Of a stretch of 29,286 nucleotides of DNA, positions 4,208-23,110 are shown piece after piece. The translations under genes and the position numbers were made by a program. Positions within the stretch are counted from its first letter, which is position 1. The number at the start of each line of letters is the position of its first letter. The notes below the pieces were generated by a model, which had not been told where the DNA came from, did no database searches, and saw only the letters and a list, made by a program, of their open reading frames with translations. The DNA is taken from IMG/VR virus record IMGVR_UViG_3300009068_000136, positions 1 through 29,286 of that record. One strand, given 5' to 3'. The DNA comes from a virus.

Positions 4208-5305
4208 ATGGCGTATTCTTACCAGAAACGCGGCAGCCCTTGGTTCTTTATTCGTTTTAAAGATCCGACTGGAAAATGGCGTAGCAAGAGCACCCGCTAC
4301 CGAATCGACAATACCCTGCACCGCGCCAAGGCAACGGCCGAGGCTGCTCAAATTGGCGTTAATGAAAAGCGAGCGGATAGTGGCCACGATTGGGTTGAGG
4401 ATTTGATCGAGAATCATCCCGTTTCCCCTCTGACAAAAGTGTATTACAGGAATTGCTGGCGTCATCTTGTGCGATTTATTATCGAAAAAAAAATAACCCT
4501 GCAAGCGTTTTCTCCATCCGATTGTGAAATTTATTTGAAATGGCGCCAAAGCCTCCCACGCACGTCCGGCGGTAAGGCTGGCCGTAACCAAGCGTGCCAA
4601 GACCTGAAAATTCTTAAATGGATTCACAGGCAAGGCCGACTGCTTGGCAAGATGGATTCTGTCGCCCTTCTGGATTACCGAATTAAGCGGGGGCCGATTG
4701 CACGCATTAAACCTATCTTTTCGGAGAATGAAGTTAAAATCACCCGGAAGGCTCTCACTGTGGAAGGTGTGCCCGATTGGATGCGAGTCAGCTTTGAGAT
4801 CGCCCTGGCTACGGGGTGCAGATTGCGTGAGACGCAAATACCTCTCGACTGCGTGGATCTGAAGAATCGCATCCTTACGTTCCCCTGCCCCAAGGGTGGC
4901 ACCGGCAAATCGTTTAGCATTCCTATCCCGGCCGCCATTGAACCTATGCTTGCCAAGATGAAGGCCGAAGGGCGCGAGATCACTTGCGAGGTGCCTCGCA
5001 CGCGAGCCTCGCTTTGCTGGCGCAGGCTGCTCGATATATGCGGCCTCAAACGTCACTGTTTTCATTCCTTGCGGGTAACTCGTGTAACCAGGCTTCGTCT
5101 TTCAGGGTGTTCGCAATCTGTCGCCATGAGACTCGTGAACCACTCTTCGACTCTAGTGCATGAACTTTACCAACGACACTGCGTAGACGATCTCCGCGAT
5201 GCAGTGAACTTAGGCCAGTCTGCATCAGCCGCCACTGATCAAAGTCGCTCGGAATTACCTTACCCGCGATCAGCGGGAATCCAGGCAACGACTGCATTTG
5301 CTTAA
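4208..5305 (+). CDS. int: Tyrosine recombinase (phage integrase)
   Basis: The product has 365 residues. It has a basic N-terminal arm-type segment (1-55), a core-binding SAM-like domain (about 60-145) and a catalytic domain with R205 (ATGCRLRE), K229 (CPKGGTGK), H286-x-x-R289 (FHSLR), H312 (VNHSS) and nucleophile Y321 (HELYQRH). It joins attP to the host att, here the adjacent tRNA 3' fragment. No Shine-Dalgarno sequence is seen before ATG 4208. Residues beyond about 330 are not typical of the family. The last 260 bp, including H286 to Y321, are antisense to the excisionase-like gene. It is one of only three plus-strand genes. Confidence 0.93.
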   Translation: MAYSYQKRGSPWFFIRFKDPTGKWRSKSTRYRIDNTLHRAKATAEAAQIGVNEKRADSGHDWVEDLIENHPVSPLTKVYYRNCWRHLVRFIIEKKITLQAFSPSDCEIYLKWRQSLPRTSGGKAGRNQACQDLKILKWIHRQGRLLGKMDSVALLDYRIKRGPIARIKPIFSENEVKITRKALTVEGVPDWMRVSFEIALATGCRLRETQIPLDCVDLKNRILTFPCPKGGTGKSFSIPIPAAIEPMLAKMKAEGREITCEVPRTRASLCWRRLLDICGLKRHCFHSLRVTRVTRLRLSGCSQSVAMRLVNHSSTLVHELYQRHCVDDLRDAVNLGQSASAATDQSRSELPYPRSAGIQATTAFA

Positions 5306-5411
5306 TGCGCACGTACCCCAGCCCGTAAGCTGCGCCTAGTTGGCGAAGGGAAAGAGCTCGGTTCTCCTGGCGGAGTTTCATTGCACTATCGTTGAGACGC
5401 ACCGAGCTCAT
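5046..5411 (-). CDS. Excisionase-like DNA-binding protein, antisense to int 3' end
   Basis: The product has 121 residues. The N-terminal half carries a helix-turn-helix-like segment (ALSLRQLGAAYGLGYVRIK), then LPGFPLIAGKVIPSDFDQW, the PGFP...W pattern common in small phage excisionase/AlpA-like proteins that read a wing and a C-terminal Trp. It starts 7 bp after the RHH gene, so the two form an operon. The C-terminal 86 codons are antisense to the integrase catalytic end and look less conserved. It may direct excision. A weak ribosome-binding site leaves ATG 5381 as an alternative start. Confidence 0.6.
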   Translation of the reverse strand: MSSVRLNDSAMKLRQENRALSLRQLGAAYGLGYVRIKQMQSLPGFPLIAGKVIPSDFDQWRLMQTGLSSLHRGDRLRSVVGKVHALESKSGSRVSWRQIANTLKDEAWLHELPARNENSDV

Positions 5412-5418
5412 AGAGGTA

Positions 5419-5574
5419 CTATTGCTTATCCTTTTCTTCGAGCTGAGCCTCGATGAGTTGCGTCACTAATTGCGAAAAGGAAAGACGACGATCGTCTGCA
5501 AGTTTGAATCCAGCCTTCTTCACGTCGAGCGGCAGATACAGGTTGGTTTGCTCATTTTCTATCGCTCGTGCCAT
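5419..5574 (-). CDS. Ribbon-helix-helix repressor 1
   Basis: The product has 51 residues. QTNLYLPLDVKK is the RHH beta-strand, and FKLADDRRLSFSQLVTQLIE gives the two helices with the turn, as in Arc/CopG-type regulators. It is clearly related to the divergent RHH protein (shared TN-YLP-D-KK, LS-S and TQLI). The left operator repeats begin two bases upstream of the ATG, leaving no room for a ribosome-binding site. A TTGACG -35 at 5603-5608 (complement) places transcription start at about the ATG, so the mRNA is probably leaderless. It probably represses itself and/or the divergent operon and controls the excisionase-like gene downstream. Confidence 0.75.
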   Translation of the reverse strand: MARAIENEQTNLYLPLDVKKAGFKLADDRRLSFSQLVTQLIEAQLEEKDKQ

Positions 5575-5575
5575 A

Positions 5576-5598
5576 GGCGCACAATGTGCGCACAATGT
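5576..5598. promoter_or_regulatory. Tandem 11-bp operator repeats, left set
   Basis: GCGCACAATGT occurs twice head to tail (5577-5587 and 5588-5598), an 11-bp period matching one DNA turn, and it contains the palindromes GCGCACA-A-TGTGCGC (5577-5591) and TGTGCGCACA (5585-5594). RHH dimers typically bind such phased sites side by side. The set covers the predicted -10 region (CATTGT on the minus strand) of the RHH1 promoter and abuts its ATG at 5574, so binding would block transcription. Confidence 0.7.
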
Positions 5599-5642
5599 AA
5601 TGCGTCAATAGATTTCTATTATTTTTTTGTTTGATCTTGCAT

Positions 5643-5671
5643 TGCGCACAACTAGCGCATACTTTGCGTCT
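5643..5671. promoter_or_regulatory. Tandem 11-bp operator repeats, right set, with RHH2 promoter
   Basis: TGCGCACAA (5643), AGCGCATAC (5654) and TGCGTCTAT (5665) recur every 11 bp, the same word as in the left set, with decreasing match. They overlap a possible plus-strand promoter (TTGCAT at 5637, CATACT at 5658) and reach the ATG at 5672. A start at that promoter would give a leaderless RHH2 mRNA. The two operator sets are 56 bp apart with an A/T-rich stretch between them. The promoter boxes are weak. Confidence 0.65.
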
Positions 5672-5857
5672 ATGAATAAGCAGAGAACAAACATTTATCT
5701 GCCAGCAGACATTAAGAAAAAGGCTTTTGATTTGGCTAATAAGGGCGGTCTATCACTTTCGGCATATATCACGCAGTTAATTCTGCGGGAATGCGCCATT
5801 GCGGATGGGCGCATCAAAGGCAATCTTGCTATTTTTACTAAGACCAATAAAAAATAA
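5672..5857 (+). CDS. Ribbon-helix-helix repressor 2
   Basis: The product has 61 residues from ATG 5672. RTNIYLPADIKKKAFDLANK and LSLSAYITQLILREC form an RHH domain paralogous to the divergent protein, with an extra basic C-terminal tail (IKGNLAIFTKTNKK). An upstream in-frame ATG at 5627 exists, but its 15 extra codons lie across the promoter/operator and add nothing RHH-like. No Shine-Dalgarno site precedes 5672, which supports leaderless translation. It is followed after 4 bp by a secreted-protein gene. It probably competes with RHH1 for the shared operator words as the other half of a lysis/lysogeny or excision switch. Confidence 0.75.
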   Translation: MNKQRTNIYLPADIKKKAFDLANKGGLSLSAYITQLILRECAIADGRIKGNLAIFTKTNKK

Positions 5858-5861
5858 GGAT

Positions 5862-6344
5862 ATGAAAAGCTCGTTAATTGTTTGTTTATTCCTTGGATTA
5901 TATTCTTTAGCTCAGTCCCAAGTAAGTAGTGGTTCACAACATAAAGTGGGTGGCGGAGGATATTTTGTGAGAGTTCCCACGGATGCTCAGGCTCAGAGAA
6001 TGAAGCAACAAAGGGAAACTCCGGCGGGTATGACGGCAAAAATGGTATGGGTAACGCCTGGCATAGTAGTGGCAAGGCACAAACAGGATGATGTAGTTAT
6101 CCTAGAAATTACTTACATTAAGAAAACCGATAAAGGCGAAGAGGGCAGCACATTTCTTGTGGCCGACCATCCAGATGCCTCAAACATTGCTGTGGGTGAA
6201 TCCGCAAAGTGCATTGTGGCACCTGGGCCAATTCGGGACGATTTTCAAGGCAGACGCCTTTACTATTTTTTCGACAAAAAAGAAGTAACCGAAAACAATT
6301 TGCGTCAGTTTAAGTCGCAGTACGCTGACGCGGAGCTGGACTAA
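5862..6344 (+). CDS. Secreted protein in the RHH2 operon
   Basis: The product has 160 residues. Residues 1-20 are a signal peptide (MKSSLIVCLFLGLYSLAQ, cleavage near QSQ). The mature part begins with a Gly-rich segment (HKVGGGG) and is otherwise a small mixed alpha/beta protein with no recognised motif (GIVVARHKQDDVVILEITYI; LYYFFDKKEVTENN). AAGGA lies only one base from the ATG, an unusually short spacing. Being co-transcribed with RHH2, it is a candidate prophage-expressed (lysogenic conversion) factor. Its 3' end overlaps the convergent winged-helix gene by 35 bp with no visible terminator between. Confidence 0.7.
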   Translation: MKSSLIVCLFLGLYSLAQSQVSSGSQHKVGGGGYFVRVPTDAQAQRMKQQRETPAGMTAKMVWVTPGIVVARHKQDDVVILEITYIKKTDKGEEGSTFLVADHPDASNIAVGESAKCIVAPGPIRDDFQGRRLYYFFDKKEVTENNLRQFKSQYADAELD

Positions 6345-6615
6345 CAATCTTGTAGTAAGGCGTTAGGCGGGAATAGCTACGACGCGGGCCATACTTGTTT
6401 TTGTTGGACGTATCTACCATAACTGCAAACTTCCGCATTTCAGCTCGGCCATTCCTCACCATGGAGTTCAGCATCTTGCTGGCGTGCGACTGTGTGTAGC
6501 CCCATATTTTTGCAATTTGAGCGGCACTTTTAAAGTCAGGCGGAACAGCCACAGCCCTTCGCTCGACAAACTCCTCAAGAGCGACCGCCCAATCTTTTAC
6601 AGCGGATACCGCCAT
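6310..6615 (-). CDS. Winged-helix DNA-binding protein
   Basis: The product has 101 residues with an excellent ribosome-binding site (GGGAGGAGT) before ATG 6615. Residues 29-57 (SAAQIAKIWGYTQSHASKML) form a helix-turn-helix in which the second helix reads SHASKMLNSMVRNG, as in MarR/ArsR-like winged helices, followed by a basic wing region (NKNKYGPRRSYSR). It is probably a late-region regulator or DNA-binding accessory. It is the last gene of the leftward late block, overlapping the phosphoesterase gene upstream and the secreted-protein gene head-on. Confidence 0.6.
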   Translation of the reverse strand: MAVSAVKDWAVALEEFVERRAVAVPPDFKSAAQIAKIWGYTQSHASKMLNSMVRNGRAEMRKFAVMVDTSNKNKYGPRRSYSRLTPYYKIVSPAPRQRTAT

Positions 6616-20985: not shown

Positions 20986-23110
20986 TTTTCAGCAACGCAT
21001 AGGCGGCCAGATTCCCGCCCGTGCCTTTGTTGTTTTGTAGTGCGTCTGGCCCCAATCCCTCCTGGCGAATCTTTAAGGCATTCGCGCGGTTTAAGTCTGA
21101 GGTGTTGCAGACAAGCGTGGCAGTGCCTGCCTTCCGCAGTTCCGTGCTGATCATGTAATCATCCGCAAGGAAACGGGCGCGAGCCAAGGGAGTCAGGCCA
21201 GCAAAGTCATTCGCGGCAACGGCTGGCCATAGCTCAGCCTTTGGCATGTCCAAACGCCTGCACATCACGCCGCCGAAACCTTCCAGAATCTCCGCATTCC
21301 CGCCGTGGTCGGGGGCGATGGCGTAGCCGGTAGATCCCGTCATAAAAAATCCGCAGACTCCAATCGCCGTTTTTGGTCTGTTGTGTAATTCTTCAGCGAG
21401 GGTCTGCAAAAGTCGTGGACTGTAGAGAATATCGTCATCCAGCCAGCAAATCTTGTCGTCAGGATCCCCGCCTACTTCCAGCGGGCCAATAAACTTGGTC
21501 GCAGGGCCATAATCCTTTGTGCGGTGAATTTGTAATTTACCAGCATCAGCCAGCTCTTGTATCTCTTTAGGAATATCCCCAAAGCGTTCGCCTGTTCTAG
21601 CCAGCTTCTCAGGGACGGACAGAATGATCTGATCTGCTGGACGCGATTGGTTAAGCAGGCTTTTTATTGTGGGCAGAATTGTGCCAATGCGTTTTGGGGT
21701 TGTAGTTAAGCCAACGATGACTCGGTTTAAGCGATCGACAGGATCGGGCAGTCGATCTGCTCCTGGCGGGATAGTTCCATTTTCAATCAGATCCAAATCC
21801 CAACGTAGTCCAGGCATCTTCGCATCTTTGGCAGTAACGGTGAGCAAGATATCCCCGGCCGCTGCCCCCATCGCTTCGTCCGCTGAGTGAATGATGCGAT
21901 GGCGATCGGCCTGCTTGTTCCCACGCTGGGTTACGAGCATGTGCTGAATTGCGTTAGGATCGTCTGCTGTGTCTGTGTAGAGGGCGAGCGAGCGCAGACA
22001 GTCCTCTGGCTCGCCAACATGCAGTACGGTGATTCTTCCCCAGGCTGATCGGAATCCTTCTCTGACCAGAATATCCGCCTCTAGGTTTTGTTTATCCGCC
22101 CGTAAACATTGGGCCATTAACTGACGGGGCAGGTGCTTGTACCAACGATTCTCCTGATTCCAATCGCTTGTATGCGGCATCGAATCCACTTTTTTTAGAA
22201 TGTGAAATGCGGTGGTGAAATCGTCGTGATCCATTCTGTCAGCGGCCAGTAAGCCGTACGCCTCACGACGTAGCGGGCAAAGGGTGATGGCTTTGCCTAA
22301 ATGCTCTAATCGTTTTGCCCGGTCAGACAGCATCATGCTGGCCTGCGTGTGGAGCTGGTAACGCTCGGCTGAGCCTAGATCGCCGTGTTCCAACGCCAAC
22401 AGGCAAGGCCCGATGGCTTGCTGATACTCGTTTTTTAGAAAGTGCTCTTGCGCCAGATAGTACCACTCCATTCCGATGCCGCTGATACGGCTGGCGATAA
22501 TCCGCTTGTTCCGCTCCGCGCTAGATATCTTTGGCCCATTAGGGGCATGAAGGATTTTTAGGTGCTCTGCCACGCCAATCTTTGCGTCTTTTGCTGGCGT
22601 GACTCTTTCGTGGATCTGTCGCTCCCAATGGGCAGGGAGTTTGCCGTCCTCCATCCTGCGGAATATCCGCTCGCGCTTGTTGTTGCGCATTCCGGAGTTT
22701 TGAACGTCGTAAATGGTGACTAAAATATCCCACTCCGTCTTGCCTGCTTCCCGATCCATAATGGCTTGCCGATGGGCCTCCGCCTGCCCTGGCTCAAAGA
22801 TATCGTCGCAATCTGCCCAAATCACATACTTACCTGTGGCTAGGCTGAAGGCTTTATTTCTGGCGGCTGCAAAATTATCGATATGAGGCCAATCCTTAAA
22901 CTCAGGGCTATTGTGGTATTCCTCGCACACTAAAGCCTCGCCAGCGGCTTCCTGAGCGCATTGGCGCACACTGTGCGCATCATTTGCGCCTACTGCTGGG
23001 ACGACTACCACTTGATCCCATAGGCCACGGGATGACTCGATCAATCTACGCAAAATCGCCCCCTCTCCGGGGCCGGAGATGAGGGCAATTGTGACAAGGG
23101 GGGTTTTCAT
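20978..23110 (-). CDS. Two-domain glycosyltransferase with helical middle
   Basis: The product has 710 residues. Residues 1-185 form a GT2 domain: NDAHSVRQ, AAARNKAFSLATGKYVIWAD-CDD with DCDD at 100-103 as the DxD, and HWERQIHERV (161-170). The middle (200-360) is helical and TPR-like (WYYLAQEHFLKNEYQQAIGP). Residues 460-640 form a second GT-like domain: VGLTTTPKRIGTILP, LDDDILYS (557-564). Two active centres in one chain would allow alternating sugar addition. It lacks a clear ribosome-binding site and follows the capsid stem-loop. Cytoplasmic: no membrane span is seen. Confidence 0.82.
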   Translation of the reverse strand: MKTPLVTIALISGPGEGAILRRLIESSRGLWDQVVVVPAVGANDAHSVRQCAQEAAGEALVCEEYHNSPEFKDWPHIDNFAAARNKAFSLATGKYVIWADCDDIFEPGQAEAHRQAIMDREAGKTEWDILVTIYDVQNSGMRNNKRERIFRRMEDGKLPAHWERQIHERVTPAKDAKIGVAEHLKILHAPNGPKISSAERNKRIIASRISGIGMEWYYLAQEHFLKNEYQQAIGPCLLALEHGDLGSAERYQLHTQASMMLSDRAKRLEHLGKAITLCPLRREAYGLLAADRMDHDDFTTAFHILKKVDSMPHTSDWNQENRWYKHLPRQLMAQCLRADKQNLEADILVREGFRSAWGRITVLHVGEPEDCLRSLALYTDTADDPNAIQHMLVTQRGNKQADRHRIIHSADEAMGAAAGDILLTVTAKDAKMPGLRWDLDLIENGTIPPGADRLPDPVDRLNRVIVGLTTTPKRIGTILPTIKSLLNQSRPADQIILSVPEKLARTGERFGDIPKEIQELADAGKLQIHRTKDYGPATKFIGPLEVGGDPDDKICWLDDDILYSPRLLQTLAEELHNRPKTAIGVCGFFMTGSTGYAIAPDHGGNAEILEGFGGVMCRRLDMPKAELWPAVAANDFAGLTPLARARFLADDYMISTELRKAGTATLVCNTSDLNRANALKIRQEGLGPDALQNNKGTGGNLAAYALLKNG

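Follow-up and report, generated by a model that had tools for sequence, protein, structure and literature searches.

The window, i.e. the whole stretch of DNA analyzed here, is a 29,286-base IMG/VR record. It encodes a tyrosine integrase, a terminase, a D-Ala-D-Ala peptidase-like protein that is likely the endolysin, and a 3D-domain protein, and is therefore assigned to a tailed phage with integration genes. The integrase was recognized by its PHROG profile (E=5.9e-28), and its Pfam match (PF00589) falls just below the cut-off. Next to it, two small divergent genes encode the proteins termed RHH1 and RHH2. The region comprises the following features.

4208-5305, + strand: tyrosine integrase, convergent with the xis-like gene and RHH1.
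5046-5411, - strand: small xis-like gene downstream of RHH1, in antiparallel overlap with the 3' end of the integrase gene.
5419-5574, - strand: RHH1, 51 residues, beta strand E-Q-T-N-L-Y-L-P; likely the lytic-side (Cro/Cox-like) repressor.
5576-5592: predicted RHH1 operator array, GGCGCA (5576-5581) and TGCGCA (5587-5592), 11 bp apart.
5581-5586, - strand: predicted RHH1 -10 element CATTGT, a weak match, 6 nt before the ATG.
5603-5608, - strand: predicted RHH1 -35 element TTGACG; TTGAC is kept at about equal distance in distant relatives (L013-L018).
5637-5642, + strand: predicted RHH2 -35 element TTGCAT, present also in L026, L032, L033, and L072.
5643-5670: predicted RHH2 operator array, TGCGCA (5643-5648), AGCGCA (5654-5659), and TGCGTC (5665-5670), 11 bp apart.
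5660-5665, + strand: predicted RHH2 -10 element TACTTT, after a 17-bp spacer; the ATG is 6 nt downstream.
5672-5857, + strand: RHH2, 61 residues, beta strand Q-R-T-N-I-Y-L-P; likely the prophage repressor (CI-like role).
5862-6344, + strand: cargo gene behind RHH2, with a signal-peptide-like N-terminus (Q-x-V-GGGG family), in a variable slot.

The fold of the two proteins was approached by several routes. As single sequences, they gave sub-threshold matches to Pfam RHH_5 (E=0.04-0.09) and to a PHROG of Arc-like repressors (E=0.002-0.01, below the cut-off). An HMM comparison with RHH families, suggested as a check in the initial annotation, identified RHH_5 when members of the family were used, with E-values of 6.7e-6 in the RHH2 set and 1.4e-4 in the RHH1 set. 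Profile searches against the PDB returned CopG and Arc for RHH2, and the CopG-family protein 9kkd for RHH1. The AlphaFold (AF2) monomer models (pLDDT of 82 and 80 for RHH1 and RHH2) consist of an extended N-terminus and two helices. These monomer models have no beta strand, an element that RHH proteins form on dimerization. With Foldseek, the models match Arc, CopG, 9kkd, and StnY with probabilities of 0.95-1.0, but with E-values above 0.01; the closest fold to RHH2 is that of Arc, which also ranks among the closest to RHH1. Both proteins fit the ribbon-helix-helix (MetJ/Arc) superfamily, in which, as in solved RHH proteins, a short beta strand precedes two helices. Given the agreement of the Pfam, PHROG, PDB-profile, and AF2/Foldseek results, RHH1 and RHH2 are ribbon-helix-helix proteins by fold, with Arc and CopG as the nearest folds. 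By analogy, they are expected to dimerize and to read bases through the beta strand, the contact positions of which were taken from the CopG alignment.

The two proteins are 53% identical over 34 residues. In a phylogenetic tree, every RHH1 sequence is separated from every RHH2 sequence with a support of 100/97, although the alignment has few columns and the branches are long. Judged from their sequences, RHH1 and RHH2 are true paralogues forming two ancient clades, and with such a split the duplication probably predates the family. The initial description of two related RHH proteins encoded back to back is therefore upheld by the fold searches and models, by the identity, and by the tree.

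Both RHH genes and the array are retained in close relatives, and also in distant ones, in which RHH2 is 41% identical. A scan with the integrase profile yielded 79 viral loci, and nearly all those that are long enough hold the RHH pair at the same place. Two scans of IMG/VR with the RHH profiles only, independent of the integrase and run on overlapping contig sets, yielded 152 loci. The search for the same pair in related phages had been set beforehand as a test of the proposal; both genes, always divergent, were present in 147 of these 152 loci. Among the five exceptions, four begin at a contig end, and the fifth (L242) has a diverged RHH-like neighbour in divergent orientation. The L242 locus (1113-1671) has an integrase of another type and a far-diverged divergent RHH pair, with an RHH2-like strand KLTLSLE and intergenic boxes TGCGCA and TACGTA. 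From this locus, the twin-RHH architecture may extend beyond the present integrase family.

Regarding the host, the integrase-profile scan of genome contigs found two contigs of Verrucomicrobia metagenome-assembled genomes (MAGs; L019 and L020) as the sole cellular relatives, with integrases 55% and 32% identical. One of the contigs is short and stops before the repressor region. In a sample of 388 Verrucomicrobia genomes, two were positive for the integrase, one being the same MAG. The genome scans contained no relative of RHH1, RHH2 was not found in the two MAGs nor a relative of it in the phage GenBank collection, and neither the RHH pair nor an integrated prophage carrying it was seen in the bacterial genomes scanned. 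On this indirect evidence from the integrase, the host group is probably Verrucomicrobia. The phage family carrying the RHH pair is large, temperate, uncultured, and unstudied.

The segment between the two genes contains short repeats next to each start codon. GCGCA had been reported to recur every 11 bp at five positions. The spacing was confirmed within each set, with two corrections: the word starts one base further right (5577, 5588, 5644, 5655), and the fifth occurrence (5666) reads GCGTC. The RHH2 side thus has two exact copies and one variant. On the RHH1 side there are two boxes in phase, retained in L003-L007 and in distant relatives. An additional RHH1-side box (TGCGTC, 5601-5606) is 14 bp off, out of phase, and overlaps the predicted -35 element. 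As first noted, the box sets stop within about 2 bp of the start codons (2 bp for RHH1 and 1 bp for RHH2), and no fitting Shine-Dalgarno sequence precedes either start.

That the repeats reflect chance or base composition, with no relation to the RHH genes, is a negligible prospect. GCGCA is indeed not over-represented across the window as a whole, but shuffled sequences seldom contain a triple array like the one beside RHH2, and the arrangement GCGC-N7-GCGC occurs five times in the window versus 1.5±1.1 times in shuffles. Phasing was further evaluated in 36 upstream regions from 18 representatives, with 500 dinucleotide shuffles. Box centres (CG) were 11 bp apart in 33 of the 36 regions versus 5.4±2.1 in the shuffled sets (largest value 15), the representatives being related and the regions not amounting to 36 independent events. 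The second harmonic, at 22 bp, was likewise raised. Short repeated sites about one helical turn apart, as bound by the RHH superfamily, are therefore found in these 33 regions.

The spacing is kept despite group-specific box sequences. The boxes are TGCGCA in group A, TACGCA/TGCGTA in group B, TGCGCA together with TACGCA/TGCGTA in group C, and TACGTA in group D, all of which are covered by the palindrome TRCGYA. Upstream of RHH1 in group B, the positions of the boxes are nearly invariant and the gaps are variable. The 11-bp phasing outlasts changes in box sequence, and the original claim of phased operator sites stands in this respect. In both proteins, the first contact position is a lysine where the half-site is TAC (groups B and D), and Gln, Arg, Val, Ala, or Pro where it is TGC (groups A and C). 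The strands QTNLY/RTNIY are paired with TGCGCA in group A, and KTTLT with TACGTA in group D. This pattern, behind which there are few independent changes, suggests that the half-site covaries with the beta strand in RHH1 and RHH2 alike.

Elsewhere in the window, no further operator array was found except at 22963-22990, which is coding. There, within the start of a glycosyltransferase-like gene, lies a triple TGCGCA-type array in perfect 11-bp phase. It was rejected as an operator: in relatives whose repressors belong to group B, the codons (AHSVR) are the same and the box type of that group is absent.

The promoters were examined with a dedicated scan, using a simple -35/-10 score on 64 distinct upstream regions per gene, from which tabulated counts were read. 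A generic scan had reported no promoter in the switch because its cut-off requires 9/12 matches. In 60 of the 64 RHH2 regions, 4-8 nt lie between the end of the -10 element of the best promoter and the start codon; the corresponding distance is 5-7 nt in 40 of the 64 RHH1 regions. The RHH2 promoters are closer to consensus than those of RHH1. In the window itself, the RHH2 -10 element is degenerate and is not the top match of the script. The top-scoring site lies elsewhere, and the prediction for the window rests on the relatives, in which the -10 element is TATTAT or TATGAT (TATTAT in the closest ones). In L032 and L072, the better-scoring RHH1 -10 element is an alternative one, TACAAT, 19 nt upstream; in group A, an alternative -10 element would give RHH1 a leader of about 12 nt, again without a ribosome-binding site. 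The two predicted -35 elements are separated by a 30-bp A+T-rich gap. In place of the single shared operator array first envisaged, there are two arrays, one per promoter.

With the transcription start taken as about 7 nt past the -10 element, each start codon would coincide with the mRNA 5' end or lie within a few bases of it. Judging by this promoter geometry, the RHH2 mRNA is predicted to have no leader or almost none; the same prediction is less certain for RHH1. The predicted geometry agrees with the earlier proposal of leaderless mRNAs closely for RHH2 and less so for RHH1. The missing Shine-Dalgarno sequences are weak evidence, since many other genes of the phage also lack one. The start codons are supported by the triplet periodicity of variability among 34 relatives, which begins exactly at both of them; after the RHH2 start, variability at the three codon positions is 0.00/0.02/0.27, and it is flat before. 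A TTG start for RHH1 at 5595 was considered and rejected, as it lies inside the operator and upstream of the favoured predicted transcription start, and triplet conservation begins at the ATG.

Divergent predicted promoters with operators are found here beside the integration genes of a temperate phage, as in a primary switch. We propose, with a probability of roughly two in three, that the region is the lysis-lysogeny switch (immunity) module, in which each RHH protein represses its own promoter and that of its sister. Two divergent, leaderless or near-leaderless promoters would each drive one small RHH repressor. Each promoter would be covered by TRCGYA boxes (TGCGCA here) from just past the -35 element to the start codon, 11 bp apart, so that RHH dimers, one per palindromic box, could align side by side on one face of the DNA. 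Occupancy of the boxes over the -35, -10, and +1 positions would block RNA polymerase. As the paralogues have similar base-contacting strands and the same box occurs in both arrays, cross-repression is probable, and would produce two mutually exclusive states. RHH2 would most likely dominate in the prophage, with a transcript carrying the exported or membrane cargo. RHH1 would most likely act as a Cro/Cox-like lytic regulator, with a transcript running into the xis-like gene.

The genes behind the pair bear on these roles. Nearly every integrase locus of the family has the xis-like gene, which was counted in 75 sources, the window and one MAG contig among them. The idea that RHH1 drives an excisionase-like gene is in line with the conservation of this gene; the designation itself is putative, based on position and look, as the product has no match in Pfam, PHROG, or PDB profiles. 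Its antiparallel overlap with the integrase 3' end is 260-272 bp long (5046-5305 in the window, 3192-3463 in L013, 5254-5525 in L014) and is retained in distant relatives. Past the catalytic tyrosine, the integrase has a variable tail that apparently corresponds to the xis-like gene read in antisense. On the other side, a secreted protein had been proposed as the partner of RHH2. The window does encode a signal-peptide-like product, of the same Q-x-V-GGGG type as in L032, L033, L072, L078, and L094, but the slot is variable: it holds a small single-span membrane protein in L029, L087, L088, and L093, and is empty in most relatives, in which the RHH pair is still present. The cargo genes, without an assigned family, might serve superinfection exclusion or lysogenic conversion.

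The reverse assignment, with RHH1 as the prophage repressor and RHH2 as the lytic one, is improbable. It would fit the RHH2 promoters, which are closer to consensus, as lytic early promoters often are, and the putative nature of the excisionase; on the other hand, RHH1 is regularly followed by the xis-like gene, and exported or membrane cargo behind RHH2 occupies a position typical of prophage-expressed genes beside a maintenance repressor. Still more improbable, by a wide measure, is that the RHH proteins are antitoxins autoregulated through phased boxes. RHH antitoxins such as RelB do bind adjacent phased sites (PMC2812701), and 18 of 28 RHH2 members have weak CcdA-like Pfam matches; however, the fixed adjacent toxin gene of type II systems is not seen, the neighbour of RHH2 being variable or absent and that of RHH1 having no toxin-family match in Pfam or PHROGs.

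A more serious alternative, unlikely nonetheless, is a secondary immunity module like immI of P22, in which the pair would control only the neighbouring accessory cargo under another master repressor. In P22, Mnt represses arc and ant, and Arc represses mnt, so that two repressors regulate each other and the antirepressor gene (PMC11016777; PMC8022706; PMC2629481). The window has two more genes that possibly encode HTH proteins and could supply such a master, and the RHH pair may then not be the master switch. These candidate regulators are small genes at 472-753 (weak HTH_11 match) and 6310-6615 (weak MarR-like match), and proteins similar to both products occur in the distant relative L013. 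Against this, most relatives lack the cargo and still have the pair, the module adjoins the integrase and xis-like genes and not a late operon, and the other small genes tested had no PHROG repressor match. The lysis-lysogeny switch remains the preferred reading. A bolder version of it, which we put somewhat short of even odds, is that this phage lineage, probably of Verrucomicrobia, uses cross-repressing RHH paralogues, leaderless transcripts, and equal 11-bp arrays as its only master switch. The strands would change with the half-site (TGC/TAC), and each specificity group would form an immunity group of its own, whose recognition code could be read.

Several specificity groups sharing one geometry constitute a natural data set on DNA reading by RHH proteins and on the origin of immunity groups. 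The twin-RHH module could also serve synthetic circuits as a two-gene toggle of very small size, and would open a first way into the lysogeny of phages that probably infect Verrucomicrobia. RHH repressors are already known as side switches (Mnt and Arc of P22), plasmid copy controllers, and antitoxins; among the papers found, none describes a large uncultured phage family with a symmetric RHH pair at the site of its main switch.

The closest parallel is P22 immI. Mnt and Arc are related and divergently transcribed, and the spacing between bound Arc dimers is about one turn. As in immI, two small paralogous RHH repressors, mutually repressing in P22, are encoded side by side in divergent genes, and Arc is among the nearest folds here. 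In contrast, immI is a secondary region within the late operon, with control over an antirepressor, in a phage that has a C2/Cro switch as well. The pair described here lies beside the integrase and xis-like genes, with exported cargo or nothing on the other side, has TRCGYA boxes, and has at least one gene predicted to be leaderless; none of the neighbour genes tested with Pfam and PHROG matched an antirepressor (ant).

The CopG and RelB systems share RHH dimers on adjacent, helically phased sites as well as autorepression, which is probable here (PMC2812701), and RHH2 matches the CopG profile. They differ in serving plasmid copy control or toxin neutralization, and RelB has 12-bp half-sites without spacer. 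The RHH regulator F55 of SSV1, active in the lysogenic state, likewise binds tandem sites overlapping a transcription start (PMC5569661). SSV1 is an archaeal virus, the F55 site is ATAGATAGAGT, and the available part of that report describes no divergent paralogous partner (PMC5569661).

In terms of layout, the region resembles the CI/Cro switch of lambda and the C/Cox(Apl) switches of P2 and 186, whose repressor genes likewise diverge or oppose each other across phased operators. In the 186 switch, the direct repeats bound by Apl, a protein of a different fold, have a spacing of 10-11 bp (PMC7498355), and leaderless repressor mRNAs are documented for lambda cI and PaaR2 (PMC8630535). The difference lies in the proteins: those switches use HTH or winged-helix folds and two distinct proteins, whereas here a single small RHH family would act on two equal arrays.
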